64,000 nucleotides of DNA from Anaerolineales bacterium. GTDB lineage: Bacteria; Chloroflexota; Anaerolineae; Anaerolineales; UBA4823. The notes under the pieces were generated by a model, which worked only from the letters and a program-made list of their open reading frames with translations, ran no database searches and was not told the origin of the DNA. The translations under genes were made by a program, and so were the position numbers. The stretch lies in NCBI GenBank assembly GCA_003105035.1, contig PQAL01000043.1, positions 162,014 to 226,013 on the forward strand. Reading direction: 5' to 3'. This document shows, one piece after another, positions 19,821 through 48,747 of this stretch (positions are counted from its first letter, which is position 1; each line of letters begins with the position of its first letter).

Positions 19821-20441
19821 ATGAAACGATTTTTCAAGAAACGCCCGAACTTATTTATTGAGCACATCAGTAACCAGGCAAAGCTCACCCTGGAGGGACT
19901 GGATGCCCTGAAGGCTTACATGGAAACCCAGGATACAGCCGCGGCAGAATTATTGAAGGTGAAGGAGAAAGCTGCTGATGAAGCCCGGCGTATCTTGATC
20001 GACGACCTGAATAGGACCTTCGTCACACCCTTCGACCGGGAGGATATCTTTGCTCTCTCGCGAACCATTGACGATGTATTGGATTATGCCTACAGCACCG
20101 TGAGCGAGATGGAGATATTGAAGGTGGCGCCGACAGAGTATATGATAACCATTGCCTCACTGCTACGCGATGCCGCCAACGAGCTATACCTGGCGGTGTG
20201 CTGCCTGGAAGAGCACCCCGCAGTGGCCAACAACCATGCCCAGGGTGCCAAAGCCATGGAGAACCGGGTGGAGGGGGTGTACCGGGAAGCCCTGGCTGAT
20301 TTGTTCAGGGGAGCCGAGGATATCAAGCATGTGGTCAAGATGATGAAATCGCGCGAGGTGTATCGCCACCTCAGCAACGCAGCCGACCGAGGCGATGAGG
20401 CTGCCAACGTGATCGCGGATATTGTAGTAAAGATCGCCTAA
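19821..20441 (+). CDS. DUF47 (PhoU-like) protein partner of Pit
   Basis: 206 aa from the ATG at 19821, which has GGAGA 5 nt upstream; a GTG 9 codons earlier has no signal. All-helical, with DREDIFALSRTIDDVLDY and AMENRVEGVYREALADLF, matching DUF47/PhoU-like Pit accessory proteins. It probably gates the phosphate permease encoded 21 bp downstream. The two genes form a pair on the plus strand next to the kinase operon. Confidence 0.92.
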   Translation: MKRFFKKRPNLFIEHISNQAKLTLEGLDALKAYMETQDTAAAELLKVKEKAADEARRILIDDLNRTFVTPFDREDIFALSRTIDDVLDYAYSTVSEMEILKVAPTEYMITIASLLRDAANELYLAVCCLEEHPAVANNHAQGAKAMENRVEGVYREALADLFRGAEDIKHVVKMMKSREVYRHLSNAADRGDEAANVIADIVVKIA

Positions 20442-20462
20442 AAATACATATTCCAACTAATA

Positions 20463-25220: not shown

Positions 25221-27656
25221 TTACGCTTTGATTCTTTCTCCCTTTGGATCCCACAAGGGTGACTGGACAACAACTGCACCCACCTGTTCTCCAAAGAATT
25301 CAACCTTAAATTCAGTGCGTGCTTTGGCATACTCAACGGGCAAGTAGGCATAGATGATGCTTTTTTCTACTGAATAGCCATATCCACCGGCAGCTACCCA
25401 GCTGATAGCCTTACCCTCCTTGGTGCGGATGGGTTCCTTACCAAGGGCAATGGTGCGGCTGTCATCGAGTGTCAGACAGCACAATTTACGAGTGACCCCG
25501 CTTTTCTTCTGGTCCAGCAGGGCTTCCTTGCCAATGAACTCCGCTTTGTCCAGCTTGACAGCAAAACCCAGGCCGGCTTCCAGGGGAGTGTAATCGGGGC
25601 TGATCTCGCTGCTCCAATATCGATAACCTTTTTCCAGCCTGAGTGTGTCGATGGCTTTGTATCCGGCAGCCACCAGTCCTTCGGGTTGGCCGGCTTCCCA
25701 TAGAGTATCCCATAGGCGCAAGCCGAATTCCATGGGGCCGTAAAACTCCCAGCCGAGCTCACCCACATAGGTCACGCGGCTGGCCAGCACGGGTACATCC
25801 CCGACCATGATGTGTTTGGCGGTCATATAGGGGAAACCCTCGTTGGAGACGTCTGCGCTGGTCACCTTCTCGAGGATCTTGCGTGCCTTGGGCCCCCACA
25901 AACCGAGGCAGACGTAAGACGAGCTGACATCTTCAATGGATACTGATCCATCCTCGGGCATGTTCAAGCGTAGCCAGGAAAGGTCGTGTTGACCGAAGGC
26001 GGTGCCGGTGATGATGAAGAAGCGATCCTCAGCCAGGCGGGTAACAGTGAAGTCGCACTCGATGCCGCCGCGTTTGTTCAGGCACTGGGTATAGACGATG
26101 GTACCCACCGGTTGGTCAATATCGTTGGCGCACAGGTGGTTGAGGAAAGCCAGGGCACCTGGACCGCGCACCTCAAATTTGTTGAAGGATGTCTCGTCGA
26201 ATAAGCCGGCATTTGCACGAGTCATCAGGTGCTCATAGCCGATGGCACGCGACCAGTTGTGGTGTGACCAGCCTTTCGGCTCGTGCCCATGGCGAGCCTT
26301 TTCTTCATAGGGCTTGAACCAGTTGGGTCGCTCCCAGCCGGTCTTCTCACCGAAATGGCAACCCAGGGCCTGCAGGCGGGTGTAGGTCGGCGATAAGCGC
26401 AAGCCACGCCTGGACAAGCGTTCTTCGCTAGGGTAATGGATGTCGTAATATTGGGTGTAGGTCTCGATCGTACGCGCCACCGTGTAATCCTGGCTGTTGT
26501 AGTTGGAACCGAAACGGCGGACATCCAGGCGCCAGACATCCCACTCGGGGTGGCCGTCGATGATCCACTCAGCCATGGTCTTTCCAATTCCGCCCGCGCC
26601 AGCCAGCCCATGGGCACAAAAGGCGCAAGCCACCCAGAAGCCTTTGACAGAGGTTGGACCCAGTAAGAATTCGCCATCAGGGGTGAAGCCTTCCGGCCCG
26701 TTTAACAGCTGGATTACCTCAGCCGTCTCAACGGCGGGGACGCGTTTAATGGAGTTTTCCATGAGTGGGGTGAAACGCTCCCAATCGGGGGGGAGCAGCT
26801 TGTATTTAAAATCACGCGGGATACCTTTCAAGCCAAAGGGAGCCGGGTTGCGTTCGTAACCGCCGGTCACCAAACCGCCCACCTCCTCACGCCAGTAAAC
26901 GAGCAAATCGGGGTCACGCAGGGTGGGAAAATCATGCCCCACGCCCTCGATCGGGCGCGTGATGATATACAGATGGGCCATGGGGACCACGGGCAGATTG
27001 AGGCCGACCATTTTCCCGACCTCACCACCCCACTGACCTGCCGCATTCACCACGACTTCGGTCTGGATGGTTCCCTGATCGGTTACCACGGCGTTGACCC
27101 GTCCGTTCTTCAGGGTGATCTTTTCTACGTTGGTATCGGTGAAGAATCGTGCCCCGCGCTTCTTTGCACCCATGGCTAGGGCATTGGTGAGCCCGGTCGG
27201 ATCAATCACCCCATCATTGGGGGTATAGGCGGCGCCGACCACGCCTTCCATATTCATGAGAGGGAACAGGTCATATGCTTCCTTGGGGGAGACGAGCTGC
27301 ATGGGGACGCCAAAGGATTGGGCCATGCCCACCAGCCGCTTGATATCCTCTAATCGTTCGGGAGACGAGGCCAGGCGTAGGCCACCCACCTCACGCCAGC
27401 CGGTATCCTGCTCAGTTTCCTGTTTCAGGCGCCTGTACAGGTCGGTGCTGTAGTGCATCATGCGGGTCAGGTTGGCATCCGAGCGCATCTGACCAACCAG
27501 ACCAGCTGAATGCCAGGTGGAACCGCTGGTGAGCTCGTGCCGTTCGAGGACGACGACATCCTTCCAGCCCATCAAGGTGAGATGGTAAGCGATACTGCAG
27601 CCGCCGACACCACCACCGATGATGACGACCTGGGCATGAGTGGGAAGATTAGACAT
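25221..27656 (-). CDS. FAD-dependent dimethylglycine/sarcosine dehydrogenase-GcvT fusion (copy 1)
   Basis: 811 aa from the ATG at 27656 with GGAGG 9 nt upstream. N-terminal FAD fold VVIIGGGVGGCSIAYHL and H49 in SGSTWHSAGL, the covalent FAD site of DMGDH/SDH. The DAO domain ends near residue ~400. Then a GcvT-like tetrahydrofolate domain with ETSFNKFEVRGPGALAFL, SYVCLGLWGPKARKIL, EISPDYTPLEAGLGFAVKLD and GKEALLDQK. It oxidises an N-methyl amine and passes the formaldehyde unit to tetrahydrofolate. The paralog at 30395 lies in the divergent arm. Confidence 0.95.
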   Translation of the reverse strand: MSNLPTHAQVVIIGGGVGGCSIAYHLTLMGWKDVVVLERHELTSGSTWHSAGLVGQMRSDANLTRMMHYSTDLYRRLKQETEQDTGWREVGGLRLASSPERLEDIKRLVGMAQSFGVPMQLVSPKEAYDLFPLMNMEGVVGAAYTPNDGVIDPTGLTNALAMGAKKRGARFFTDTNVEKITLKNGRVNAVVTDQGTIQTEVVVNAAGQWGGEVGKMVGLNLPVVPMAHLYIITRPIEGVGHDFPTLRDPDLLVYWREEVGGLVTGGYERNPAPFGLKGIPRDFKYKLLPPDWERFTPLMENSIKRVPAVETAEVIQLLNGPEGFTPDGEFLLGPTSVKGFWVACAFCAHGLAGAGGIGKTMAEWIIDGHPEWDVWRLDVRRFGSNYNSQDYTVARTIETYTQYYDIHYPSEERLSRRGLRLSPTYTRLQALGCHFGEKTGWERPNWFKPYEEKARHGHEPKGWSHHNWSRAIGYEHLMTRANAGLFDETSFNKFEVRGPGALAFLNHLCANDIDQPVGTIVYTQCLNKRGGIECDFTVTRLAEDRFFIITGTAFGQHDLSWLRLNMPEDGSVSIEDVSSSYVCLGLWGPKARKILEKVTSADVSNEGFPYMTAKHIMVGDVPVLASRVTYVGELGWEFYGPMEFGLRLWDTLWEAGQPEGLVAAGYKAIDTLRLEKGYRYWSSEISPDYTPLEAGLGFAVKLDKAEFIGKEALLDQKKSGVTRKLCCLTLDDSRTIALGKEPIRTKEGKAISWVAAGGYGYSVEKSIIYAYLPVEYAKARTEFKVEFFGEQVGAVVVQSPLWDPKGERIKA

Positions 27657-27771
27657 AATCAACTACCTCCTTGAAGAAATAAGTGCAGATTGGATTGGAT
27701 AAGCAGAAATTTCATTAATGTTCATCAAGGTCATGTTCACTATGACGGATTTCCGACAATGATCAATGTTT

Positions 27772-29470: not shown

Positions 29471-29522
29471 ATTATAATAAAAAAGCCAAAATCTTGCAAA
29501 TTTCTTCAGATTCTAATATAAT
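29471..29522. promoter_or_regulatory. Divergent promoters sharing one palindromic -35
   Basis: TTGCAA at 29494-29499 is its own reverse complement. On the plus strand it is followed after 17 bp by TATAAT (29517-29522). On the minus strand it is followed after 17 bp by TATAAT (plus-strand attata at 29471-29476). Both genes therefore have a near-consensus promoter, but polymerase cannot occupy the single -35 in both directions at once. The plus promoter serves deoR and the amine cluster; the minus promoter serves the nucleotidyltransferase-CBS-DMGDH arm. Confidence 0.75.
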
Positions 29523-29578: not shown

Positions 29579-30391
29579 ATGAGTAAATCTCTCATTCCAG
29601 CTCAGCGGCGAGAGCGTATCCAGGGGTATCTAGCTATCCACAAGATCGTCCGGATGGACGAATTGTCTCGGATGCTGAAGGCCTCCGAAGCGACGGTGCG
29701 GCGCGATCTGGAATGGTTGGAGCGTGAAGGTGTGCTGGAGAGAACCCATGGGGGAGCCATCCTCAGCCAGCGCATGACCTTGGAGCCTGAATATCTCCAA
29801 CGGGCATCCATTAATCCAGACGAAAAACGGCAAATCGGTGAGCTGGCAGCCTCGCTCATTAATGATGGTGAAATGGTATTTATCAATAGCGGGACGACCA
29901 CCGCCCAGGTGATTCGTAATATCCGCGCGAATGGCGGAATCAGTGTGTTCACCAATAATCTGGTGGCGGTGCTGGAGGGTGGCGGGACGGGCTGCAAGCC
30001 GTATTTGCTGGGAGGCGAATTCCAGCCGCATTCCAACTCGGTGGCGGGGCGATTCGCCCTGGAGAATCTGCGCCAGGTGTATGCCGACAAGGCGTTCCTG
30101 GGGGTGGATGGGATCAGCCTGATCCACGGCTGCACTGTGCCATCCAGCGCGGAAGCAGAGATCATCCGGCTGATGATCGAGCGGACCAAGGGGGAGATCT
30201 TTATCGTGGCTGACCATACCAAGTGGGGCGTCGTGTCAAATTTCCAGATCGCCACCATCGATGAGGTTGATCATCTTGTCACCGATGCCGAGATCGATCC
30301 TACCACGCTTGAATCGTTGGATGCACATTTAGTTAAAATTCACATTGCGAATGGGAAGGACAACCATAATTCCATGGAAAGGCGGAAGTAG
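29579..30391 (+). CDS. DeoR-family transcriptional repressor
   Basis: 270 aa. N-terminal winged HTH (~7-62; QGYLAIHKIVRMDELSRMLK, EATVRRDLEWLEREGVLERTHGGA) and a C-terminal sugar-phosphate sensor domain (~75-255; FINSGTTTAQVIRNI, DKAFLGVDGISLIHGCTVPSSAEAE, DHTKWGVVSNF). The effector in this family is usually a phosphorylated sugar. No Shine-Dalgarno before the ATG; the leader is ~50 nt. It heads the plus arm and ends 3 nt before the DMGDH copy 2 gene, so it is autoregulated with the pathway. Confidence 0.95.
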   Translation: MSKSLIPAQRRERIQGYLAIHKIVRMDELSRMLKASEATVRRDLEWLEREGVLERTHGGAILSQRMTLEPEYLQRASINPDEKRQIGELAASLINDGEMVFINSGTTTAQVIRNIRANGGISVFTNNLVAVLEGGGTGCKPYLLGGEFQPHSNSVAGRFALENLRQVYADKAFLGVDGISLIHGCTVPSSAEAEIIRLMIERTKGEIFIVADHTKWGVVSNFQIATIDEVDHLVTDAEIDPTTLESLDAHLVKIHIANGKDNHNSMERRK

Positions 30392-30394
30392 TAG

Positions 30395-32821
30395 ATGAAA
30401 GATCAAGCACGTGTCGTCGTTATCGGTGGGGGGATCGTGGGAGCAAATATTGCCTATCACCTGGCGAAAATGGGCTGGACAGACCTGGTGTTATTGGACA
30501 AGGGCGAGATTGCCAGTGGGGAATCCTCGCACGCCGCAGGGCTGGTGACCCAATTTGCCACATCGCAGACCCTGATGCAGTTCCGTAAATACAGCATCGA
30601 GCTCTACAGCGGGCTGAAGCTGTTTGACCACGTCGGCAGCCTGCGGGTGGCTTCCTCGCCCGACCAGCTGGTTGAGTTGCGCCGTAGTGTGAGCCGCGCC
30701 AAGGCAATCGGCATGGATGTGGAGATCATCTCACCTGAAGAGGCGCTTAAGATCATGCCCCAGCTGAGCAGGGAAAACCTGTATGGGGCGATCTATTTGC
30801 CCAGGGATGGCCAGCTCGACCCCTACATCACGACGACCACCATGGTGCGGTTGGCGCGCGAGATGGGCGTGGAGGTAAAAACCTGTACGCGTGTGACCGG
30901 GTTTGAGCTCTCACCTAAAGGCGAGATCCAACGTGTGCTCACCACCCAGGGAGCCATTCGCACGGAGATTGTGGTCAACGCCGCGGGCATGTGGGCACCC
31001 CAGGTAGCTGCTATGGCGGGGTTGCACATCCCCACCACCCCGGTTGACCACCAGCACATTGCACTGAAGGCAGTCAGTGGTCATGAATTTGCAGCCAGCA
31101 CACCCTGCCTGAGGGATCCGGATAACCTGGTCTACATGCGCCAGGAAGCAGGAGGCCTGGTGATCGGAGGCTACGAACCCGACCCACTGGCACGCTGGAT
31201 CGATGGGGTGCCCTGGGAGCATGGCGATGCAACCCTGCCGGCCGATTACAACCGCTTTGAGCAACTACTGGAAGGCGCCATCCGGCGTATCCCCTTCCTG
31301 GAGCAAGCGGGCATCATCACCCTGGTGTGCCATCCTGGTGCCTACACCCCCGATTGCCAGCCCATGCTTGGCCCGATGGCTGGGGTACGCGGCATGTGGA
31401 TCGCAGCGGGCATGTCACTTAATGGTTACGGTGGGGCTGGTGGGATTGGCAAGCTGATAGCGGAATGGATCATAGGTGGCGAAGCGACCCAGGATGTGTA
31501 TGCCTACCGGGCAACGCGCTTTGCCAATTATTATTCAGACCCCGAATATGCCTGCGAGCGAACGCGGGAGTGCGTAAAATATTACTACCGCCTGAGATTT
31601 CCAAATGATGAATATGAGTGGGTACGCCCGCACCGGGTGAGCCCCGTCCATTACCGCCTGCAGGAGATGGGAGCAGTCTTCGGCGAAAAATTTGGTTGGG
31701 AACGCGTGAATTACTTTGAATCAGATAAACCCTGGCGACGGATGGGTGAAGATCAGCGCAAGTGGGGTTGGAAGCAGCCGCCGTATTTTGAGTGGGTTGG
31801 TAAAGAGCATCAAGCGGCGCGTGAAGGGGTTGCCTTGTTCGACCTGACCTCCTTCGGCAAGATCGAGGTAAGCGGTGCCGGTGCGCTGAGCCTACTGCAG
31901 CGGGTGGCAGATAGCAACATTGACAAACCTGTGGGCTCAGCGATCTATACCCAATTCCTGAATTCACGCGGTGGGGTCGAAGCGGATGTCACCATCTCAC
32001 GCCTGGCGGAGGATTGCTTCTGGGTCATCACGGGCTCGGCTTTCATCGGGAATGACCTGGCCTGGCTGCAGATGTACCAGCAGGAAGGTGATGGACCAAT
32101 TAGCATTCGCGACATCACCCAGGAGTACGCCTGCTTGGCATTATGGGGGCCTAATGCACGCTTGGTCTTACAAAATCTCACCAGCGACGACATCTCTAAC
32201 GAGGGGATGCCCTACCTGCACGCCGGCATGATCCAGATCAATGGGGTCAGCATCTGGGCACAGCGGGTGAGCTATATCGGCGAATTGGGCTGGGAGCTGT
32301 ACATCCCCAATAACCGGGCCACGCCGGTGTGGGATGCTTTAATGAGCGTCGGTCAGGAATACGGCATACAACCAGGTGGTTATAAGGTGCTCGACACTCT
32401 CAGGCTGGAAAAGGGTTATCGTTATTACACCGCCGATGTGACCCAGCTTGAAACACCGTTTGAGGCAGGATTGGGCTTCTGTGTCGATCTCTCCAAGGAA
32501 AGCTTTATCGGCAAGGATGCACTGGTCAGGCAAAAACTGGCTGGCCTGCAACGCAAGCTGTGCACCCTGGTGCTAGATGCGAATACATATACCCAGATTT
32601 ATGGAGGGGAGGCGGTATATTACCAGGGTAAGGTCATTGCCCGGGTACGCAGCGGTGGGTATGGGTATACACTTAAGCAGAATATCCTGTATGCTTACCT
32701 GCCCGTGGAGCTAGCTAAAACCGGCACCGCCTTGGAGCTTGACCTGGTCGAAGGCCGCTACCCGGGAAAGGTGACCCCCATGGTGCTATTCGATCCCAAG
32801 GGAGAGCGCGTAAGGGCTTGA
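30395..32821 (+). CDS. FAD-dependent dimethylglycine/sarcosine dehydrogenase-GcvT fusion (copy 2)
   Basis: 808 aa. Same build as the copy at 25221: FAD fold VVVIGGGIVGANIAYHL, H46 in SGESSHAAGL at the flavinylation position (the preceding Trp of copy 1 is replaced by Ser), and a C-terminal GcvT domain with LTSFGKIEVSGAGALSLL, EYACLALWGPNARLVL and TQLETPFEAGLGFCVDL. The two paralogs are diverged enough that they probably act on different N-methyl amines. Directly behind deoR and 44 nt before the Rieske gene. Confidence 0.95.
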   Translation: MKDQARVVVIGGGIVGANIAYHLAKMGWTDLVLLDKGEIASGESSHAAGLVTQFATSQTLMQFRKYSIELYSGLKLFDHVGSLRVASSPDQLVELRRSVSRAKAIGMDVEIISPEEALKIMPQLSRENLYGAIYLPRDGQLDPYITTTTMVRLAREMGVEVKTCTRVTGFELSPKGEIQRVLTTQGAIRTEIVVNAAGMWAPQVAAMAGLHIPTTPVDHQHIALKAVSGHEFAASTPCLRDPDNLVYMRQEAGGLVIGGYEPDPLARWIDGVPWEHGDATLPADYNRFEQLLEGAIRRIPFLEQAGIITLVCHPGAYTPDCQPMLGPMAGVRGMWIAAGMSLNGYGGAGGIGKLIAEWIIGGEATQDVYAYRATRFANYYSDPEYACERTRECVKYYYRLRFPNDEYEWVRPHRVSPVHYRLQEMGAVFGEKFGWERVNYFESDKPWRRMGEDQRKWGWKQPPYFEWVGKEHQAAREGVALFDLTSFGKIEVSGAGALSLLQRVADSNIDKPVGSAIYTQFLNSRGGVEADVTISRLAEDCFWVITGSAFIGNDLAWLQMYQQEGDGPISIRDITQEYACLALWGPNARLVLQNLTSDDISNEGMPYLHAGMIQINGVSIWAQRVSYIGELGWELYIPNNRATPVWDALMSVGQEYGIQPGGYKVLDTLRLEKGYRYYTADVTQLETPFEAGLGFCVDLSKESFIGKDALVRQKLAGLQRKLCTLVLDANTYTQIYGGEAVYYQGKVIARVRSGGYGYTLKQNILYAYLPVELAKTGTALELDLVEGRYPGKVTPMVLFDPKGERVRA

Positions 32822-32865
32822 TCCATTCTTAATAATTAGTATCTGTACCCGTGCGAGGTGTTCCT

Positions 32866-34116
32866 ATGGAGACACAAGAAGCACAGAAAATAAAAGCACT
32901 GTTGGAAAGCCGCCAGCCAAACCATGGCCTGCCAAGACCGTTCTACCACGATGAGCTGCTTTACCAGGCGGAAATGGAAGCGATTTGGCGGCAAGGCTGG
33001 CTCTTCGCCGGGCATTCCTGCCAGATCCCCAACCCGGGTGATTATTTCCTTTACAACGTGGAAGGCGATTCGGTCATCGTCGTACGGGGGAATGACGGGC
33101 AGGTTAACGCCCTCTACAATGTATGCCGTCATCGTGGCAGCGTGATCTGCCAGGAAGCTGAAGGAAGTCTCAAGCGCTTCATCTGCCCTTACCACCAGTG
33201 GACCTACGACCTCAGCGGAAACCTGCTGCTCCAACGCGGCATGCAGGAGGACCTGGATAAATCGCAGCTTGGCCTGCACCAGGCCTATGCCAGGGAAGTG
33301 GAAGGGATGATCTTCATCAGCCTGGCTGAGACTCCGGTTGATTTCAACCCAGTAGAAAAGGCCATTGGCCCGGTTGCCAAACCTCAAGGTTTGGCACGTG
33401 GGAAAGTAGCTAAGATCATGGATTTTGATGTGAAGGCTAATTGGAAGCTGGTGTGGGAAAACAACCGCGAGTGCTATCACTGCAATGTAAACCACCCCCA
33501 GTACATCAAAGCCAACTTTGACCACTATAACGCCGATAATGCCATCCCACGCGTGGTTGAGCACCTGAAAAGGGTTACCACCCGCCTTGAATTCAAGCTG
33601 GCCGCCCAGGGCATGTCTCTTCGGGAGGAGACAGGGATGACTGAGTTCCCTGACCCCGAGCGTGGAATCTGGTATGCTGCCAACCGCACGCCATTAGTGG
33701 AAGGCTACGTCAGCGAATCGATGGATGGCAAGCAGGTTGCGCCCCTGATGGGTGATTACACCGATCCGGAGGTAGGCACCCTGCGCATCCGCTCCTTGCC
33801 GAATTTCTGGATTCACGCCAGCTGTGACCATAGCGTGGCGGTGCGCCTCACCCCGCGCGGCCTTGCCAATACCGATATCCGCATGATCTGGCTGGTGGAC
33901 GGAAAAGCTCAGGAAGGCAAGGATTACGAGCTGGATAAACTATTGCCCTTCTGGTTATTAACTGCTCAGCAGGATTGGCACATCTGCACCAACCAGCAGG
34001 CGGGCGTCAACTCGCATGCCTATTCGCCTGGACCGCTCTCGAAGTATAAAGAGTACAACCTCGACCGGTTTCTCCGCTGGTATCTTCAGGAGATGAGGAA
34101 TCACATCGAGAAATGA
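32866..34116 (+). CDS. Rieske non-heme iron oxygenase, GbcA-like
   Basis: 416 aa from the ATG at 32866 with GAGGTG upstream. Rieske 2Fe-2S motif CRHRG (C87, H89) and CPYHQW (C107, H110). Mononuclear iron site ENNRECYHCNVNHPQ (H205, H210) and a carboxylate further on. Close in style to oxygenases that demethylate glycine betaine, stachydrine or carnitine. It needs O2 and a reductase; no GbcB-type ferredoxin reductase is in the window. Its last bases overlap the PfkB gene start (ATGA). Confidence 0.93.
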   Translation: METQEAQKIKALLESRQPNHGLPRPFYHDELLYQAEMEAIWRQGWLFAGHSCQIPNPGDYFLYNVEGDSVIVVRGNDGQVNALYNVCRHRGSVICQEAEGSLKRFICPYHQWTYDLSGNLLLQRGMQEDLDKSQLGLHQAYAREVEGMIFISLAETPVDFNPVEKAIGPVAKPQGLARGKVAKIMDFDVKANWKLVWENNRECYHCNVNHPQYIKANFDHYNADNAIPRVVEHLKRVTTRLEFKLAAQGMSLREETGMTEFPDPERGIWYAANRTPLVEGYVSESMDGKQVAPLMGDYTDPEVGTLRIRSLPNFWIHASCDHSVAVRLTPRGLANTDIRMIWLVDGKAQEGKDYELDKLLPFWLLTAQQDWHICTNQQAGVNSHAYSPGPLSKYKEYNLDRFLRWYLQEMRNHIEK

Positions 34117-35066
34117 GTGAGCAAAAGCCCGTTTACGTCGGTTTTGGTATGCTTACCCCGGTGGCTATCATGGTGGTGGAGCAGCTGCCAGCACACAATT
34201 GCGGGGCGCTGGTCAAAGAGGTCAGCGAGTTCGTCTTTGATGATGCTGCCATTGTGGCCTGCCTGCTGCGCCAGTGGGATCTGCCGACCGCCATGATTGG
34301 GACCACCGTCGGCGACGACCCGCGTGGTCACCTGCTGGCGAAGCAACTCCATGACTGGGGCGTAAGCGGGGAAGTGCGTTTCTCCACCGAGATCAGCACC
34401 CCATGGGAAGTGGATGTCTCGGATGAGACTGGGGCACGAACCTACTTCTGGCAGCGGCCTGAAAAAGTACTGGATACACTGGATAGCGCAGACCTGTCGT
34501 TGATCGAAGGGGCGCGCATGCTGTATGTGGACTGGTACGATGGAGAGCACATCGTGCGCGCTATGGATGAAGCCAGACGGGTAAACGTGCCGGTGTTTTT
34601 AAATTTTGAGTACGGCCATTTTGACCTTGATCTTCTGAAGCGCTACGCGGGGCGAGCTACGATCTGCCAGGCGGTGACCGATGAAGCCCAACACGGCAAC
34701 GTGCCTGCCATGGAAATTGCCCACAAGCTGCTGGCAGCCGGCGTGCAGACGGTGCTGATCACCATGGCCGAGGAAGGCTGCCTGGGCGTTCAGGGGGAGC
34801 AGGCGGCACGCATTTATGCCCCCAAGATGCATGTGGTGGATGGCTGCGGGGCCGGAGCGACTTTCTCTGCTGGGTATATTTTTGGTTATTTACGGGGGTG
34901 GAGCCTGTTGGAGTCTTTGCGCTTTGCCACCGCAGCTGCCTCCCTGAAAGTCACTCGCCCTGGGCTGAAGATGTTCCCCGTAGCACAAATTCAAGAATTG
35001 GCTGCCCAGCTGCGCGCCGAGCAGACGGTACCCACTGACGATGCACCCAAAAGGAGCGACGATTGA
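34113..35066 (+). CDS. PfkB-family carbohydrate kinase
   Basis: 317 aa, overlapping the Rieske gene by 4 bp (ATGA) and the next gene by 4 bp. Substrate and ATP regions: AMIGTTVGDDPRGHLLAKQL in the N-terminal half, and near the C-terminus VVDGCGAGATFSAGYIFGYL, the PfkB signature 2 with the anion-hole G-A-G and catalytic position D/C (DGCGAGATF, where most members have DTxGAGD). The final D is T, so the catalytic Asp of GAGD is missing and the activity may be altered. The sugar is unknown. Confidence 0.85.
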   Translation: MSEQKPVYVGFGMLTPVAIMVVEQLPAHNCGALVKEVSEFVFDDAAIVACLLRQWDLPTAMIGTTVGDDPRGHLLAKQLHDWGVSGEVRFSTEISTPWEVDVSDETGARTYFWQRPEKVLDTLDSADLSLIEGARMLYVDWYDGEHIVRAMDEARRVNVPVFLNFEYGHFDLDLLKRYAGRATICQAVTDEAQHGNVPAMEIAHKLLAAGVQTVLITMAEEGCLGVQGEQAARIYAPKMHVVDGCGAGATFSAGYIFGYLRGWSLLESLRFATAAASLKVTRPGLKMFPVAQIQELAAQLRAEQTVPTDDAPKRSDD

Positions 35067-36520
35067 TCAATTTTGCCACCCTACTTACCCCGGAACAAGT
35101 TAAGCGTACCCACACCGCCTCACTGGAGATCCTTGAGAATGTTGGTCTGCTGGTGCGGAACGAGGAGGCGCGCGCAATCTTCAAACGCTGCGGCTGCCAG
35201 GTGGATGGGGAGAGCCAAATCGTGCGCTTCTCACCGGCAGTGGTTGAGAAGTTTGTGCGTATGCTGCCACCTACCTTCACTTTTTACGGCCGCGATCCGC
35301 AGTTTGACCGCACTTTGCCTCAAGACGGACCGGTGATTGTCACCGGTAGCTCAGCACCCGAAGTGATTGACCCGCTGAGCGGAAAAGCCCGCCGGGCGCG
35401 TTCGGATGATATTGCCCGTATCGCTCACCTGATCAACGCTTTACCCGCCTACGATGTATTCTCAGTCTCAACCCTGGCCGATGATGCTCCACCGGGTCAA
35501 TTTACCCTGGCCCGCCTGTACCCGGCCTTGAAGTACTGCACCAAGCCGGTACGCAGTACCACCAAGGATATGGAGGATATCCAGGCAATTATGCGCCTGC
35601 TGTATGCCATCGCGGGGAGCGAAGCTGCCTACCGTGAGCATCCCTTTGTGACCCATCATTACTGCCCGGTGGTGTCACCCCTGACGATGGACCACTTATC
35701 CACGCAGGCGATGATTTACTTTTGCAGGCAGGGCCTGCCGGTTTATCCAAGTATCGTGCCCAATGCCGGTCTCACTTCACCGATGTCAATGGCGGGTACT
35801 CTGGCCCAGGGCAACGCAGAATTCCTGGCAATTTCAGTGTTGTTGCAGATGGTGAAGGAAGGCAGCCCGACGATCTACGCCACCCTGCCGACGGTTGCCG
35901 ACATGCGCACCGGAGCCTACGCTTCGGGCGGGATTGAATGCGGCATGCTGCACATAGCATTTGCCCAGATGGCCCGCTTTTACAACGTGCCCTGCGGAGG
36001 GTATATTGGCCTGTCCAATTCCAAGATCAACGATGCCCAGTCGGGTTATGAGACCGGCATGTCGACCGTGGCAGGTGTGTTAGGAGGGGCTGATATGCTC
36101 AATATGGGCGGCCTGTTGGATGCCCTCAAGGCCTTCGATTTCGCCAAAGCGGTCATCGACGATGAGATCGCCCAGATGCTCAAACGCCTGAAGCGGGGCA
36201 TCCAGTTTGACGAGGAGGAGCTGGGGCTGGAGGTGATTGCCCAGGTGAAACCGAGCGGGTCGTTCATGCTCAGCCAGCACACCAAAAAACGCATGAAAAC
36301 CGAAGCCCTGCTTACCAAACTAGCCGATCGAGATGCGCGCGAAACCTGGGAGAAGAAAGGCTCACTCGATACGCATGCACATGCCATGGGGCGTATGCGC
36401 GAAATCCTGACCACTGGAAGTACGGTGGTATTTCCCGAAGATGTCGAGCGGCGTATCCGCTTCGAGTTCAGAGACCTAGTCTCGGGAAACCTGGAGATGC
36501 CCATGGGGTTTCAGGATTAA
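35063..36520 (+). CDS. MttB-superfamily methyltransferase (no pyrrolysine)
   Basis: 485 aa from a TTG start (35063) with AAGGAG 6 nt upstream, overlapping the PfkB stop. Shows MttB landmarks: LTPEQVKRTHTASLEILENVGLLV, TGSSAPEVIDPLSGKARRA, YGIGLSNSK-like GYIGLSNSKINDAQSGYETG, and MGRMREILTTGSTVVFP. There is no in-frame amber, so it belongs with the non-pyrrolysine (MtgB/MtxB-like) members that demethylate glycine betaine, proline betaine or carnitine. The partner corrinoid protein (MtgC-like) is not in this window. Confidence 0.9.
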   Translation: MINFATLLTPEQVKRTHTASLEILENVGLLVRNEEARAIFKRCGCQVDGESQIVRFSPAVVEKFVRMLPPTFTFYGRDPQFDRTLPQDGPVIVTGSSAPEVIDPLSGKARRARSDDIARIAHLINALPAYDVFSVSTLADDAPPGQFTLARLYPALKYCTKPVRSTTKDMEDIQAIMRLLYAIAGSEAAYREHPFVTHHYCPVVSPLTMDHLSTQAMIYFCRQGLPVYPSIVPNAGLTSPMSMAGTLAQGNAEFLAISVLLQMVKEGSPTIYATLPTVADMRTGAYASGGIECGMLHIAFAQMARFYNVPCGGYIGLSNSKINDAQSGYETGMSTVAGVLGGADMLNMGGLLDALKAFDFAKAVIDDEIAQMLKRLKRGIQFDEEELGLEVIAQVKPSGSFMLSQHTKKRMKTEALLTKLADRDARETWEKKGSLDTHAHAMGRMREILTTGSTVVFPEDVERRIRFEFRDLVSGNLEMPMGFQD

Positions 36521-36565
36521 AATATGTGCAGTACAACCTGCACACTGGCAGGAGAGGAATAACCG

Positions 36566-37504
36566 ATGAAATTATATTTCGCTACCGACGTACACGGCTC
36601 GGAGGTTTGTTGGAAGAAATTCCTGGCCGCCAGTAAATTTTATGAGGTGGACACCCTGGTGTTGGGGGGTGACATGACCGGGAAAGCCATCATCCCGATT
36701 ATCTCCCAGGGCGGTGACGATTATAAGGTAACCCTGCTGGAGCAGGTGACGATCCTGCACGGGAAAGAAGAAGTAGATCGGATGGTGCAAACCATCCAGA
36801 ACCGGGGTTACTACCCGTATGTGACCGATCCCGACGAAGTTCAGGCGCTCGTATCCACCCCTGGCAGGCAGGATGCACTGTTCATGGAGCAGGTGCTCAA
36901 AACCATCCAGCGCTGGATGGACTATGCTGACGCCAAACTTGCTGGAACGGGCATCCAATGTTTCGTCTGCCCGGGCAACGACGATGTGTTTGAGATTGAC
37001 CCTGTCATTGCAGCTTCAAAGTACGTGCGCAGCCTGGAGGGCGAGGTGGTGACGTTGGATGAGCACCACGAAATGGCCAATTCGGGCTGGTCAAACCCAA
37101 CCCCGTGGAACACACACCGAGAAGAACCTGAGGAAGCCTTACTTAAACGGCTGGAAGACATCATCAGCAAGGTTAAGAATCCTTCCCAGGCAATCTTCAA
37201 CTTTCATGCTCCCCCTTTCGGCAGTGGATTGGATGAAGCCCCTGAGCTTACCAAGGATCTCCGCCCGGCCTATGCAGGCCGTTCAATGATCCCGGTTGGA
37301 AGCCATGCGGTGATGAAAATGATCGACAAATATCAACCACTATTGGGTTTGCATGGCCATATCCACGAGGGCAAGGGTACACGAAAATACAAGAAGACCC
37401 TGTGTGTCAACCCTGGCAGCATGTATGAACAGGGTATGTTGAATGGTTTAGTCATCGAATTAAAACCCCAAAAGGTGGGTAACTATTTACTTACCACGGG
37501 ATAG
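36566..37504 (+). CDS. Metallophosphoesterase
   Basis: 312 aa. Metal-binding motifs in family order: D-x-H at MKLYFATDVHGSE, GGDM at VLGGDMTGK, GNDD at CPGNDDVFE, a His in NFHAPPFG and GLHGHIHEG with C-terminal VNPGSMYE. That is the calcineurin-like fold. Ribosome-binding site AGGAGAGG, start 46 nt after the MttB gene. The substrate is unknown; in this cluster it could hydrolyse a phosphorylated intermediate or cyclic nucleotide. Confidence 0.9.
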   Translation: MKLYFATDVHGSEVCWKKFLAASKFYEVDTLVLGGDMTGKAIIPIISQGGDDYKVTLLEQVTILHGKEEVDRMVQTIQNRGYYPYVTDPDEVQALVSTPGRQDALFMEQVLKTIQRWMDYADAKLAGTGIQCFVCPGNDDVFEIDPVIAASKYVRSLEGEVVTLDEHHEMANSGWSNPTPWNTHREEPEEALLKRLEDIISKVKNPSQAIFNFHAPPFGSGLDEAPELTKDLRPAYAGRSMIPVGSHAVMKMIDKYQPLLGLHGHIHEGKGTRKYKKTLCVNPGSMYEQGMLNGLVIELKPQKVGNYLLTTG

Positions 37505-37640
37505 GTTCGTGGAGGGTGCTTGGAAAGGAGGCAATTATCCGGGATTGATGTTTGTATAAGCAGAAGGTCAGGTCCGAAGGTTTTTCTCGTCCAAAGCTTC
37601 CAGGTAGTTCGGAAGCTACATAACCAAAAAGGAGAATGCA

Positions 37641-39512
37641 ATGAGTGACGTTTCTCTATTCGTTCGCAAAGCAAGCGGCCTGGTAAGGGCCTGGTCGGTG
37701 TTTGATGCGTTCATTTACTCCACTTTCTCTATCAATCTGATCACTCTCGGGCTTTTTATCTTCTCTTATTGTTATTATTTTGGGGGCAGTTTGATCAGTG
37801 GGGTGGTGATTGGAGCCATCTTCACCATATTTGAAGTGATTGTATATGCCAGCCTGATCTCAGCCATGCCGCGTGCTGGTGGTGATTACGTTTGGCAGAG
37901 CCGTATCCTGAACCGGGCGATCGGCTTCATCCTGGCTGTCACAGGTTGGTGGTTCATCCTGTGGCTGTGGACCCCTCTCTATGGCCAGATGCTGACCTAC
38001 GAGGTTTATACACCGCTGCTTGCCATTGCAGGTTTCAAGGATGCTGCCCTCTGGTTCTTAACAAACACAGGGCAGTTTGTCGGCATGGCTTCCGTATGCT
38101 TGATCGTGTTTATTTATATTGCCATAGGTATGAAATGGTATGCCCGTATCCAGAAGTTCTGCTTCTGGGGTGGGCTGGTCGGCCTGGCGATCGTTTTCGG
38201 TCTGCTACTGTTTGGCAACCATGACACTTTCGTGGCTAATTACAATTCCATGGCCCCCATGTTCGGTGCGCAAGGTGGAGATGTGTACGCAGCCACCATG
38301 CAGGCGGGTGCAGACGCAGGGACGGTCGCTGGACCTTTATTCCCACTCGCTATCGGTGCCAGCATGTTGTTAGTGCCCATGCTCACTTTCTTCAACCTGT
38401 GGCCAAACTGGGGTTCCACCCTATATGGTGAGGTGCGCGGCGCTTCAGATTACAAGCGTAATTTTATGGGCATGTTCATGGCCATTGTGGTCACTACGGT
38501 AGGTGCGGTTATCTTCTTCCTGCTGATCGGCAAGACCATCGGCTGGGATTTCTATAACAATTCCAATGGCGCCTTCTGGAATTGGGGTTTTGGCTACACC
38601 ACTACCCCACCACCATTACCCATCTGGCCTTACCCGGCTCTGTTTGCCACCTTCCTGGTCAAGAGCCCGGCGATCATGTTCATCGTGGTGCTATTGATGA
38701 GCCTGTGGTGGTTCGGCTGGTCCGGAACACTCTTTCTGAGCTCAACCAGGGTGATCTTTGCGGCTGCCATCGACCGCATGCTACCTGAGTGGGTCTCAAA
38801 AATTGAACCTCGCACCAAGACACCCCTCTTTGCCTTGCTGCTCATGGTGATCCCAGCGCTGATCATCTCATACTTGTATGCCTTTAAGATATTTAATTTC
38901 AATACCCTGGCGCTGGACGCCACGGTGGTCATCGCCATCACCTTCTTCGGTTCAACAGTTGCCGGGATCATCATGCCCTGGAGAGCCAAGGATGTGTTTG
39001 ACGGATCTCCTATCGCTAAGTATAAGGTACCCATCTGGCTAGGTTGGATCGTAACGATCGCTTATGGATTGTTCTCGATCTACCTCATTTATATTTCGTT
39101 CAAGTACGGTTGGTCGGTGCTAAGTGGCTTAAGCGCGGTTGCTGCAGGTGGCACCACCTGGTTTGTGGTGCTTATGCTGGCGATACTTACCATTATCAAC
39201 GCGGTAATATTGATATGGATCTTCTTCCACGTAGTCAAGGGCATCACCGCGAGTCAAGCCATGCCTGTTATTACCCTGGCAGGTTTGATCTTCCTGGGCT
39301 TTCTCGACTGGTTGCTGGTTATGTGGTTTTGGGATCCACAGACTGCAGATGGAATAGCAAGTTATGCCATTGGTTGGTCAAACGTTAATTCGATGATCTT
39401 CATGCTGATAAACTACATCGTTGCGGCTGCGATCTATTTCGGCTTCAGCGCTTACCGGCGGAGACAGGGTATTCAGATCGAGAAAGTTTACAAGGAAATC
39501 CCGGTTGAGTAG
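37641..39512 (+). CDS. APC-family amino acid permease
   Basis: 623 aa, about 12-14 membrane helices spread over the whole length. APC hallmarks: AFIYSTFSINLITLGLFIF, SAMPRAGGDYVWQSRILN, and a large loop near ~210-240. It brings in the amino acid or betaine-like substrate for the amine-degrading genes of this operon; that assignment is from position. Ribosome-binding site AAGGAG. Long C-terminus extends to ~620. Preceded by a small hairpin (AGCTTCC/GGAAGCT, ~37597-37619). Confidence 0.9.
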   Translation: MSDVSLFVRKASGLVRAWSVFDAFIYSTFSINLITLGLFIFSYCYYFGGSLISGVVIGAIFTIFEVIVYASLISAMPRAGGDYVWQSRILNRAIGFILAVTGWWFILWLWTPLYGQMLTYEVYTPLLAIAGFKDAALWFLTNTGQFVGMASVCLIVFIYIAIGMKWYARIQKFCFWGGLVGLAIVFGLLLFGNHDTFVANYNSMAPMFGAQGGDVYAATMQAGADAGTVAGPLFPLAIGASMLLVPMLTFFNLWPNWGSTLYGEVRGASDYKRNFMGMFMAIVVTTVGAVIFFLLIGKTIGWDFYNNSNGAFWNWGFGYTTTPPPLPIWPYPALFATFLVKSPAIMFIVVLLMSLWWFGWSGTLFLSSTRVIFAAAIDRMLPEWVSKIEPRTKTPLFALLLMVIPALIISYLYAFKIFNFNTLALDATVVIAITFFGSTVAGIIMPWRAKDVFDGSPIAKYKVPIWLGWIVTIAYGLFSIYLIYISFKYGWSVLSGLSAVAAGGTTWFVVLMLAILTIINAVILIWIFFHVVKGITASQAMPVITLAGLIFLGFLDWLLVMWFWDPQTADGIASYAIGWSNVNSMIFMLINYIVAAAIYFGFSAYRRRQGIQIEKVYKEIPVE

Positions 39513-39518
39513 AAAACA

Positions 39519-39632
39519 GGTAAGAGGCGTTGTGGAGAAATATGAGAAACAGGCAATTCGCTGTAAAAACACTCTCCAAACTAGATTAATTGTGGTTTAA
39601 TTATGGAATTCACAATTAGAACGCCTCTTACC
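39519..39632. other. Three-way-junction structured element
   Basis: Between the permease and the solute-binding gene. Outer 13-bp perfect stem GGTAAGAGGCGTT (39519-39531) / AACGCCTCTTACC (39620-39632). Inside are TGGAGA/TCTCCA (39533-39538, 39573-39578) with a small ACAG/CTGT hairpin, and TAATTGTG/CACAATTA (39587-39594, 39611-39618) with inner AATT/AATT. Three helices meet with little unpaired sequence. No poly-T follows; it is not a normal terminator. The remaining stretch to 39790 holds no gene. Confidence 0.65.
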
Positions 39633-39790
39633 CAAAAAAGCATCACCTGTCTCTATCTCGTTGCTTAATAAAAATATGTTTGAAAATAAAGGCAAGATGG
39701 GAGGTGGATCCGACAAATATTGCCCATGTTCCTGTTCAACCATAGATGTTTGATCTATTCATAACAATATTACGAGGAGAGAATAAGAAT

Positions 39791-40975
39791 ATGCTACACA
39801 GAAAGCTCGCATTATCAGTAATTTCGATTCTTTTAATTATCACCTTTGTGCTGTCCGGATGCGGTGGTGCTGCAGCCCCAGATGTCGCTGAAGGATATAC
39901 TGGCACTGTGGTAAAAAGTGTTCCACAGGACCTGGTGGATGCCTGCAAAAAAGAAGGCGGGATGACCATCATCGCCACCCCTCCCGACTGGGCGAACTAT
40001 GGCGAGATTTTTGCTGACTTCCAGACTACTACCGGTGTCAAGATTAACTCCCTCGACCCGAATGCCGGCTCGGCCGATGAATTAGCCGCCATCGAAGCCA
40101 ACAAGAACAACAAAGGTCCACAGGCTCCGGATATCGTCGATGTCGGTTACGCCTATGGGGCGACCGGTATGGCATCAGGCTATTACATGCCATATAGGGT
40201 TACCACCTGGGACAAAATCCCCGACACTTTGCTAGGCATTCCTGCAAAGGACCCCAATGGTTTCTGGACCGGTGGCTACTATGGCGTGATGGTCTTCTTG
40301 GTGAACACTGCAGTCGTGCAGAACGTCCCCCAAAATTGGGCAGACCTGCTTAAACCCGAGTATAAAGGACAGGTTGCATTATCCGGCCCTGCCACCACCT
40401 CCAACCAAGCGATCCAGATCATTTATGCTGCTGGCTTGGCCAACGGCGGTACGCTGGATAACGCTCAGCCCGGTCTCGATTTCTTCAACGAATTAAACAA
40501 GGTTGGTAACTTTGTTCCGGTGGTTGCTAAGGTAGGAACTGTTGCCCAAGGCGCCACTCCCATCACTCCATTCTGGGACTATCTGGCCTTTGGTTACCGC
40601 GATTCATTCGCTGGTAATCCTCCAGTGCAGGTTGTTTATCCCTCCCCAACCATTGCCAGTATGTACGTGCAGGCCATCAGCGCCTATGCGCCCCACCCCA
40701 ACTGTGCTAAAGTCTGGATGGAGATCCTCCACTCTGATGAGGGTCAGCTGGCCTGGATGAAGGGCTATGCTCATGGCGTGCAGCAGGCGGATCTGGAAGC
40801 CCGCGGAGTGATCCCAGCTGACTTAGCAGCCAAATTACCCGCTTCAAGTTCTTATGCCTCAGCAGTAGCTCCCAGCCCTGCCCAGCTTGAAGCAGCCACT
40901 ACGCTGATCAAATCAGGCTGGATGACAACCGTTGGTGTGGCTCAATCCACTGCCACGCCCGAACCAACTCCGTAA
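39791..40975 (+). CDS. ABC transporter substrate-binding lipoprotein
   Basis: 394 aa from the ATG at 39791 (GAGGAGA upstream). Lipoprotein signal MLHRKLALSVISIL with lipobox LSGC ~25. The mature protein (DACKKEGGMTIIATPPDW, NAGSADELAAIEANKNN, TWDKIPDTLLG, LVNTAVVQNVPQNWADLLKPEY, SYASAVAPSPAQLEAATTL) fits the ABC type that serves Fe3+, thiamine, polyamines or aminoethylphosphonate. Its ligand is not clear. The gene opens a four-gene importer operon. Confidence 0.9.
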   Translation: MLHRKLALSVISILLIITFVLSGCGGAAAPDVAEGYTGTVVKSVPQDLVDACKKEGGMTIIATPPDWANYGEIFADFQTTTGVKINSLDPNAGSADELAAIEANKNNKGPQAPDIVDVGYAYGATGMASGYYMPYRVTTWDKIPDTLLGIPAKDPNGFWTGGYYGVMVFLVNTAVVQNVPQNWADLLKPEYKGQVALSGPATTSNQAIQIIYAAGLANGGTLDNAQPGLDFFNELNKVGNFVPVVAKVGTVAQGATPITPFWDYLAFGYRDSFAGNPPVQVVYPSPTIASMYVQAISAYAPHPNCAKVWMEILHSDEGQLAWMKGYAHGVQQADLEARGVIPADLAAKLPASSSYASAVAPSPAQLEAATTLIKSGWMTTVGVAQSTATPEPTP

Positions 40976-40982
40976 ATCGGTC

Positions 40983-41885
40983 ATGACCGTTTCAGATGCA
41001 GTAAAGCGGGACGCGCCACAGGCGCGTCCCGCTCGAACCAAAGTATCCTGGGCGTGGCTGGGAGTCCTGCCTTTCTTCATATTTACCTTCCTTTTCCTTA
41101 TCTATCCATCTTCGACCATCGTTATCCGAAGTTTTCAAGATTCGGTCACCAAAGCCTTTACCTTTGAAAATATCAATAAATTACTCCATTCTCAGTATTT
41201 GATCCAATCGTATTGGATTAGCATCAAGCTGAGTCTGATTACAGCTCTGGGCGGCGGTTTTTTTGGCTTCCTGCTGGCCTATGCAGCCATCCGGGGTGGG
41301 CTGCCAAAATCGATGTATGCGGCATTGATGACATTTTCAGGGGTGGCCTCCAACTTTGCCGGTGTGCCCCTGGCATTCGCCTTCATTGCCCTGTTGAGCC
41401 CTACCGGGTTATTAATTGGCTGGATGAGGGCACTTGGGTATAACCCTTATTTCCATGGTTTCACCCTGTACACATTCACCGGATTAGCCATTGTCTATAT
41501 GTATTTCCAATTCCCCCTGATGGTGCTGGTGATTGCCCCTGCCATAGAAGGCATGCGCCGTGAGTGGCTGGAAGCTTCCGAAAACCTGGGAGCCAGTTCA
41601 TTTCAATACTGGCGTTATGTGGCTTTACCCATTTTAGGGCCAGCTCTTTTAGGAACCATGATCTTGCTGTTTGGAAATGCCTTTGGGGCATATGCCACCG
41701 CCCAGGCCCTTACCGGTGGGCAGATCAACCTGGTAACGATTGTGATCGGCTCGGAGCTGCGTGGGGATGTATTGGGCAATGCCGGAGTAGGCTATGCCTT
41801 ATCCCTGGGAATGGTGGTTATCATGGCTTTAGCAATTGTTGGGTATACCGCCCTGCAGAGGCGGACAGAGAGGTGGCTGCGATGA
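40983..41885 (+). CDS. ABC transporter permease (subunit 1)
   Basis: 300 aa from the ATG at 40983, 7 nt after the lipoprotein stop and with no Shine-Dalgarno, so probably coupled. About six membrane segments with the binding-protein-dependent permease EAA loop EGMRREWLEASENLGASSFQYW. Typical of PotB/CysU-like two-permease importers. Confidence 0.9.
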   Translation: MTVSDAVKRDAPQARPARTKVSWAWLGVLPFFIFTFLFLIYPSSTIVIRSFQDSVTKAFTFENINKLLHSQYLIQSYWISIKLSLITALGGGFFGFLLAYAAIRGGLPKSMYAALMTFSGVASNFAGVPLAFAFIALLSPTGLLIGWMRALGYNPYFHGFTLYTFTGLAIVYMYFQFPLMVLVIAPAIEGMRREWLEASENLGASSFQYWRYVALPILGPALLGTMILLFGNAFGAYATAQALTGGQINLVTIVIGSELRGDVLGNAGVGYALSLGMVVIMALAIVGYTALQRRTERWLR

Positions 41886-42658
41886 AGCGGGGCAAATTCT
41901 GGGCCTGGTTCATCATGTTCCTGGGTATCCTTTATTTCTTCCTGCCCCTGGTTGCAACCTTTATCTTTTCATTGAAAGCCAGGTTGGGTGAGCTGAGTTT
42001 TCAAGCTTATTTCAATATCTTCAAAAGCCCTCAGTTTTTATACAATTTTGGAGCATCAGTAGTTTGGGCAACTTTTACGATCATCGTTGGGATCTTGATA
42101 TTCGTTCCAACTGCGTTCGTAATCCGCCTCCGGGTGCCAAAAGCGCGTAGTCCGGTTGAGTTTATCACCTTGCTGCCCTTCGTAATTCCTCCAATTGTGT
42201 ATGTCTTCGGTCTCGTGCGGACTTACAGCCAACCGCCACTCTTGATTGTGGATAATCCCGCGTTGCTTGTTGCAGCATACACGATACTGTCCATGCCCTA
42301 CATGTATCGCTCTGTGGATACGGGAATACGAGCAATCGATGTACGTACATTGACTGAAGCAGCCCAAAGCCTTGGTGCCAGTTGGCCCACGATAATATTG
42401 CGAGTGATTCTGCCGAATATCCGCACCGCCATCTTGAGTGGAGCTTTTCTTAGTTTTGCCATTGTAATCGGTGAGTTAATTCTCGCCGGTTACCTTGTCA
42501 AACCTGCCTTTGCCCCGTACATGGCTTATGTGATGCAGCAAAAGGCCTTTGAGCCAGCCGCCATGGCTATCGTCAGCTTTGCCCTCACCTGGATTGCCAT
42601 GGGCATCATCCAGCTTATTGGCCGTGGTCGAGGTGTTCAGGTTGGTGCTGGACATTAA
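41882..42658 (+). CDS. ABC transporter permease (subunit 2)
   Basis: 258 aa from the ATG at 41882; overlaps the stop of the previous gene (ATGA). About six membrane segments; EAA motif RTLTEAAQSLGASWPTIIL. PotC-like second permease of the importer. Confidence 0.9.
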   Translation: MKRGKFWAWFIMFLGILYFFLPLVATFIFSLKARLGELSFQAYFNIFKSPQFLYNFGASVVWATFTIIVGILIFVPTAFVIRLRVPKARSPVEFITLLPFVIPPIVYVFGLVRTYSQPPLLIVDNPALLVAAYTILSMPYMYRSVDTGIRAIDVRTLTEAAQSLGASWPTIILRVILPNIRTAILSGAFLSFAIVIGELILAGYLVKPAFAPYMAYVMQQKAFEPAAMAIVSFALTWIAMGIIQLIGRGRGVQVGAGH

Positions 42659-42679
42659 ATCTACAAAGAATGGTATCGA

Positions 42680-47351: not shown

Positions 47352-47367
47352 ATACGAAAGGACCCCT

Positions 47368-48696: not shown

Positions 48697-48747
48697 GAAC
48701 TCAATAATCAATAAGGATATGAATTTGGGGGGAGAGAGGTAAATATA

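Follow-up and report, generated by a model that had tools for sequence, protein, structure and literature searches.

Genes for a Rieske oxygenase and an MttB-family methyltransferase in a putative quaternary amine operon of Anaerolineales

The window analysed here, 64,000 nucleotides of contig PQAL01000043.1 (positions 162,014 to 226,013) from the Anaerolineales bacterium assembly GCA_003105035.1, carries on its plus strand a gene for a DMGDH-GcvT fusion protein (30395–32821), followed by genes for a GbcA-like Rieske oxygenase (32851–34116), a PfkB-fold protein (34113–35066) and an MttB-family methyltransferase (35063–36520). From gene content, conservation, residue comparisons and phylogenetic trees we infer that these Anaerolineales genes form part of an operon for the catabolism of a betaine-type quaternary amine, in which either MttB or the Rieske enzyme would take the first methyl group and DMGDH-GcvT the next one. 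The probability of this reading is put slightly below one half (about 0.48), and the use of two different substrates by the two enzymes is nearly as likely as dual-mode use of one.

The placement of the Rieske, MttB and DMGDH-GcvT genes in one tight same-strand run had been proposed in an earlier sequence-only reading of this DNA, and all coordinates given there hold. About 0.95 kb separates the stop codon of the Rieske gene from the start of the MttB gene. Adjacent genes are joined by four-base overlaps, ATGA at 34113 (Rieske/PfkB) and TTGA at 35063 (PfkB/MttB); both the spacing and the overlaps are read in the sequence just as had been described.

Recurrence and history of the gene pair

The searches covered an order sample of 151 genomes, a phylum sample of 400 genomes and a scan of named genomes restricted to the best 80 of at least 574 Rieske relatives, which were picked by the patterns NWKLVWE and ECYHCNV. 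The Rieske clade is present in 6 of the 151 order genomes, the host genome included (67–100% identity); 14 further genomes with weaker, mostly partial Rieske matches were left out of this count. Genes of the MttB clade were found in 27 of the 151 genomes (58–100% identity, E ≤ 1e-90), the match in one of them (G067) being partial. The pairing of the two genes is not due to chance, because in all six Rieske carriers an MttB-clade match lies 83–1174 bp downstream of the Rieske gene, as measured between the match ends. The pair, which the sequence-only reading had proposed to look for in other genomes, thus recurs in related genomes and is not unique to the window.

In the phylum sample the Rieske clade occurs in 3/400 genomes, all three with the MttB clade, and the MttB clade in 17/400. 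Two genomes of this sample (G199 and G509) harbor Rieske relatives of 52% and 43% identity and have no MttB-clade match at E ≤ 1e-150. Eight of the best 80 named relatives belong to Chloroflexota; MttB is seen in six of these loci, and in the other two the contigs end first. The 72 non-Chloroflexota loci show no MttB in the examined flanks, many of which are short, even when a more sensitive search by profile was made with a threshold of E ≤ 1e-3. Named Rieske relatives at 66–79% identity come from metagenome-assembled genomes (MAGs) labelled Anaerolineales, Anaerolineae or Chloroflexi. Judged by length, the contigs of three of the eight Chloroflexota loci are those of G095, G118 and G074, so there are 11 non-redundant carriers overall, with MttB visible in nine and contigs that end too early in two. 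The link through the PfkB gene, a part of the earlier description, holds in the window and is not conserved: PfkB stands between the pair, or right behind the Rieske gene at a contig end (L045), in 6 of the 10 readable carriers, and G065, G028, G074 and L049 have no intervening PfkB gene.

The rest of the neighborhood is shared as well. Among the 21 mapped MttB loci, the window included, a DMGDH-GcvT gene is found in 16, an APC permease in 13, and DeoR orthologues and a metallophosphoesterase in 12 each. The family of the window's ABC importer with its solute-binding protein also occurs beside MttB in the absence of GbcA (L036, L040), and within ~6 kb of GbcA-like genes in the two genomes without the MttB clade (G199, G509). 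Such a common importer family at MttB-only and GbcA-only loci would fit one transported substrate class.

Aerobic respiration was considered as an explanation of the presence of GbcA and rejected: in a survey of COX1 and cydA, a terminal oxidase was found in 6/6 genomes with GbcA, each having at least one of the two, against 18/20 genomes without it (Fisher p = 1). The host genome has cydA only (E 3.5e-165). A full COX1 was not found there, only two open reading frames (ORFs) with partial matches; these are consecutive short ORFs of 141 and 134 aa on another contig (C13; L154, 5365–6192).

In the MttB tree, from which L150 is absent because it was missed by ORF picking, the 31 operon MttB rows form one clade (99/100), separated by a branch of 1.58 from the host genome's 9 other MttB proteins. 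The presence of GbcA requires at least five changes on this tree. On a quick tree the 11 Chloroflexota GbcA rows likewise form one clade (100), which is nested in a larger one with rows from Planctomycetota, Verrucomicrobiota, Rokubacteria and betaproteobacteria. By eye, with no formal congruence test, two groupings are common to both trees, namely G028/G065/G074/L049 and the window with L046; the place of L025 is not directly comparable, as GbcA-less MttB rows intervene. GbcA probably joined an older MttB/DMGDH operon once and was then repeatedly lost or transferred jointly with the operon; in part of the order, a single insertion would have placed the Rieske gene behind DMGDH-GcvT and ahead of MttB. 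Both MttB and GbcA of the host group with rows of family f12 and with the Chersky rows, apart from the other genomes of family f1; the trees would be explained either by horizontal transfer of the operon or by a misplaced contig.

The Rieske protein and its electron supply

The Rieske protein, with Pfam domains Rieske and Ring_hydroxyl_A, scores 375.6 bits with the NCBIfam GbcA model (NF058607), which is below the cut-off of 670, so it is not a GbcA proper. An in-frame ATG at 32866, located behind GAGG, was judged by eye to be a likelier start than position 32851. In the accessible part of PMC7948474 the mark of group Vb is given as an Asn at the position of CntA Y203. The accessible part of PMC10952381 describes a bridging Glu and a Cys-X-X-Cys pair beside the iron, the pair marking some group V members. 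Group Vb comprises, according to these parts of both papers, enzymes that oxidatively N-demethylate glycine betaine and stachydrine. The Asn (N205 of the window protein), the bridging E207 and the pair C208/C211 are present in 83/83 aligned rows. The Rieske ligands C92, H94, C112 and H115 are kept in 11/11 Chloroflexota rows and in 71/72 others, the last one having a gap, and the iron-binding histidines of the 2-His-carboxylate site are identical across the 11 Chloroflexota rows. Agreement in the ECYHC region is partly by construction, since this region was a search pattern; N205 and the Rieske ligands lie outside the patterns, and the selection of the window protein and of five genome rows did not depend on them. 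By the published residue criteria the window protein is assigned to group Vb. It resembles GbcAB and Stc2 in the Rieske Cys2His2 set, the Asn, the Glu, the Cys-X2-Cys pair and the 2-His-carboxylate site, and its closest solved relatives, nearly full length, are 3n0q, 4qup and 3vca. It differs from GbcAB in its score under the GbcA cut-off and in its membership of a second clade, in which GbcB is not a neighbor.

This difference concerns the reductase. With a Roseibium protein (L090) as the GbcB query, and with the fragment L100 excluded from both clades, GbcB lies beside GbcA in 32 of the 36 loci of the proteobacterial clade (L088–L124), whereas it accompanies none of the 43 loci of the window's clade (L045–L087), some of which are on short contigs. 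Genome-wide, the best GbcB match in 18 genomes of the window's clade, many of them possibly incomplete MAGs, has 33% identity, and six of them have no match at E ≤ 1e-10; in a parallel search of five first-clade genomes the matches had 52–100% identity. The best match in the host genome, 257 aa long, combines FAD and NAD domains, lacks Fer2 and adjoins a gene for a molybdopterin-type oxidoreductase.

Instead of GbcB, a DMGDH-type flavoprotein gene tends to be the neighbor in the window's clade. It lies on the same strand within 300 bp in 29/43 loci of this clade versus 0/36 of the first one, and within 2.5 kb in 35/43 versus 1/36, as judged by a profile built on Anaerolineales sequences that may miss other first-clade enzymes. 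Subunits of the electron transfer flavoprotein (ETF) are encoded in the examined flanks of 12/43 versus 1/36 loci, none of the 12 being from Anaerolineales. In the available part of PMC12093977 the known role of ETF genes is with dimethylglycine dehydrogenase (dgcAB_fixAB), and therefore their presence alone is no proof that ETF feeds the Rieske protein.

A farther-reaching proposal, which at present should be regarded as improbable, is that the whole clade (Anaerolineales, Planctomycetota, Verrucomicrobiota, Rokubacteria and some Burkholderiales) dropped GbcB, that the Rieske enzyme would receive its electrons from the adjacent DMGDH-type flavoprotein directly or via ETF or ferredoxin, and that the Anaerolineales operon would keep the O2-independent MttB route for the same first step. 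If this were true, oxidation of the dimethylated product would pay for oxygenation of the trimethylated substrate, and the two demethylations would make a redox-balanced pair.

Among cultured organisms, Roseibium polysiphoniae KACC 19711 (L090, 168–14013) has Rieske and corrinoid modules next to each other. Its divergent GbcA/GbcB genes lie beside genes for MtgC, DUF1638, a pterin-binding methyltransferase and RACo, with homocysteine methyltransferase and FTHFS nearby; MttB was not seen in the examined flank.

The MttB protein, its partners and the choice of substrate

The MttB protein matches PF06253 (MTTB) with 311.9 bits against a gathering cut-off of 25. With the model of the pyrrolysine trimethylamine methyltransferase (TIGR02369) it scores 370.8 bits, below the cut-off of 525, and its 485-aa frame is open, without the in-frame amber codon that this enzyme reads as pyrrolysine. 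The six-frame PF06253 match extends 45 bases 5' of the TTG codon, through an in-frame TGA. The TTG, which by eye is shortly preceded by AAGGAG, was taken as the start because it agrees with the open frame and with where the orthologues begin. In this frame the MTTB domain is present, and 132 of 400 aligned residues are identical to those of the MtgB structure 9yce. At the family level neither the MttB nor the Rieske protein is foreign to methylamines, both families being quaternary-amine demethylases; the kinship of the two assumed in the sequence-only reading is correct to this extent.

The likeness to MtgB does not extend to its substrate pocket. Docking predictions in the accessible part of PMC6855144 give Y94, N199, R309, H345 and F353/Y353 as glycine betaine contacts of MtgB. 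The window protein has S96, P202, G312, N347 and L355 there, and these residues are identical in 21/21 aligned rows, the window included; the contacts are known from docking only, and positions 345 and 353 are near an alignment gap. The assumption that both enzymes act on the same kind of substrate is thereby weakened below the family level.

No gene for a corrinoid protein adjoins the MttB gene of the window. Genes for MtgC, RACo and homocysteine methyltransferase are all absent beside MttB in the nine GbcA-containing loci with readable MttB. In a profile search of all frames, one or more of them were found near MttB in 10 of the 23 loci without GbcA. Five loci have all three, either between PfkB and MttB (L030, L032) or nearby (L145, L146, L149). 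This search recovered RACo in L151 and MttB in L150; the GbcA-less contigs L039, L043, L150 and L151 are short. The idea that GbcA replaces a local MtgC/RACo set was rejected: the ORF-based difference (0/9 loci with GbcA versus 9/22 without, Fisher p = 0.03) leaves nothing on independent tree pairs. Matches to TIGR02370 are present in 26/26 genomes with MttB that were searched (G067 was left out), above the family cut-off in 18, but the model also matches MetH and was positive in 9/14 control genomes. The host genome has 10 such matches, eight of them at 162–237 bits (one above the family cut-off) and two weak. The MttB subfamily is likely to work with corrinoid proteins, since MtgC, RACo and homocysteine methyltransferase are frequently encoded near the orthologues, and its substrate or binding mode would be unlike that of MtgB. 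In the available part of PMC12478193 the MttB-type system MtgBCD is reported from aerobic marine bacteria, and the division into an aerobic and an anaerobic route made in the sequence-only reading is therefore too sharp. Several orthologous loci resemble the MtgBCDE system described there in joining MttB, MtgC, RACo and homocysteine S-methyltransferase; the window operon differs from it by having a Rieske gene and by lacking the three other genes locally.

According to the preferred reading, the older core of the operon would consist of transport (APC permease, ABC importer), the MttB-family corrinoid methyltransferase and the DMGDH-GcvT flavoprotein. The quaternary amine would be imported by the APC permease or the ABC importer. 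Its first methyl group would be passed by MttB to a corrinoid protein whose gene lies in another part of the genome, with no need of O2, or would be removed by the GbcA-like Rieske enzyme with O2 and two electrons and with release of formaldehyde. The remaining tertiary amine would be demethylated by DMGDH-GcvT, its carbon going to tetrahydrofolate. The adjacency of the two genes, their common DMGDH-GcvT partner and their common transporter family speak for a shared substrate. Several points weigh against the preferred reading. With all five predicted betaine contacts replaced, MttB may take another substrate; its corrinoid partner is assumed, the genes expected for it being absent beside MttB in the nine GbcA-containing loci; and the Rieske gene is without adjacent GbcB and without a close GbcB elsewhere in the carrier genomes searched.

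A possible, though somewhat less favored, alternative is that two substrates are handled by one regulon: the Rieske enzyme would act on a carboxylated betaine (glycine betaine or proline betaine) and MttB on another quaternary amine, with DMGDH-GcvT and the transporters serving both. The replacement of all five contacts, uniform across the rows, and the long branch leading to the MttB clade agree with it, and according to the available part of PMC12478193 relatives of MttB take proline betaine, gamma-butyrobetaine, carnitine or phosphocholine. Against it stands the constant adjacency of the two genes, which also have the DMGDH-GcvT partner and the transporter family in common, and use of other betaines would alter the docking-derived contacts too.

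Less probable still, and to be considered unlikely, is a phosphate-activated pathway like that of MthK/MthB of Eubacterium limosum. In such a pathway an APH/choline-kinase-like enzyme would phosphorylate an amino alcohol, MttB would demethylate the phosphorylated product, and the metallophosphoesterase and a phosphate transporter would handle the phosphate. Phosphocholine demethylation by a kinase and an MttB-type enzyme is published (PMC12155760, available part), and the MthBCAK choline system described there is similar in that an MttB member is linked to a kinase gene. A choline-kinase-like gene is present in 21 of 26 genomes with MttB, in or near the operon in seven loci and in L051, and MttB is accompanied by metallophosphoesterase and, in five loci, by PHO4 and DUF47. 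But at E ≤ 1e-20 a choline-kinase-like gene is missing from the host genome itself, and group Vb Rieske enzymes act, according to the accessible part of PMC7948474, on carboxylated amines. The kinase-like gene of the operon is also of another kind: MthK is choline-kinase-like, whereas the operon encodes a PfkB-fold protein without the catalytic Asp.

The Asp of the GAGD motif is the catalytic residue of PfkB sugar kinases, and solved kinases carry Asp at the aligned position. The protein of the window has GAGA, and the same replacement by Ala is found in 13/13 aligned copies, in 18 loci of an overlapping set (the fragment L174, which ends before the motif, was not counted) and in 6/6 distant homologues from another family of the class (f16, 35–39% identity). 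In four regions around the latter MttB, DMGDH and GbcA were not picked up, with a crude ORF picking that lost even PfkB in L182 and L184. The modelled protein has a ribokinase fold (mean pLDDT 78.8). It is predicted to belong to a conserved pseudokinase family, and a regulatory or scaffolding role is our guess. Kinase-activated demethylation through this protein was rejected, as every copy read has Ala in place of the Asp and four operons with GbcA lack the gene.

An artefact, either a contig foreign to the bin or one gene being a decayed leftover, is very improbable: the grouping of the host MttB and GbcA with f12 and Chersky rows rather than f1 and the bin contamination of 4.08% would allow it, but the pair recurs in independent assemblies, both frames are open with the Rieske active-site residues kept, and horizontal transfer accounts for the grouping equally well.

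Surrounding genes and significance

The host assembly has a size of 4.45 Mb in 43 contigs, with completeness of 97.1% and contamination of 4.1%. By Pfam and NCBIfam searches the same-strand run extends from 29579 to 43741 on the plus strand, from a DeoR-family regulator (29579–30391; Pfam DeoRC, 142.5 bits) to an ABC transporter ATPase. The regulator is followed by the operon copy of DMGDH-GcvT (Pfam DAO, FAO_M, GCV_T and GCV_T_C), the Rieske, PfkB and MttB genes, a metallophosphoesterase (36566–37504, weak Pfam Metallophos match) and an APC-type amino acid/amine permease (37641–39512; AA_permease_2). The ABC importer is encoded by genes for a solute-binding protein (39746–40975; SBP_bac_6), two permeases (40932–41885 and 41708–42658, the listed ORF of the second starting at 41564; both BPD_transp_1) and the ATPase (42680–43741; ABC_tran, TOBE_2). 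In consensus scans promoter-like sites were no more frequent than in shuffled sequences (13 versus 14.6, standard deviation 4.1), and terminator-like sites were only slightly more frequent (21 versus 16.6, standard deviation 4.4); a promoter-like match that ranks among the best is located 5' of the DeoR gene (29494–29522).

A second, diverged DMGDH-GcvT gene (25221–27662, minus strand) belongs to a divergent transcript outside the operon. Over 800 aligned residues its product shares 44% identity with the operon copy, and the orthologues of the two copies fall into separate groups (69–76% and 79–80% identity). The second copy, which had been counted as part of the operon picture, is an old separate paralogue.

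Genes for a DUF47/PhoU-like protein and a PHO4 phosphate transporter (19794–21446) lie ~14 kb upstream of MttB in the window; in five relatives (L034, L036, L038, L040 and L041) DUF47 and PHO4 are directly downstream of MttB. Beyond the operon (44853–49740) follow an 832-aa Fe-S/flavin oxidoreductase with dihydropyrimidine dehydrogenase-like domains, an amidohydrolase and a luciferase-like monooxygenase. The host genome has 10 matches to PF06253. Clusters of MttB paralogues include one with a corrinoid protein (C24, L142), one with an oligopeptide-type ABC transporter (C38, L143) and one with corrinoid proteins and an open-frame MtmB homologue (C18, L144).

According to the available part of PMC11264602, corrinoid methyltransferase genes, mttB above all, are common in MAGs, including those of Anaerolineae. 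In the open-licence PMC literature no report was found of the Rieske-MttB pair in Chloroflexota or of the GbcB-less Rieske clade. The operon brings together two chemistries that are commonly set against each other, it has a gene order open to testing, and it belongs to a group represented in this work by MAGs only. It marks a subfamily of MttB distinct from MtgB, with a conserved partner predicted to be a pseudokinase. The existence of a large betaine-type Rieske clade without the expected adjacent reductase turns the source of its electrons into a directly testable question.

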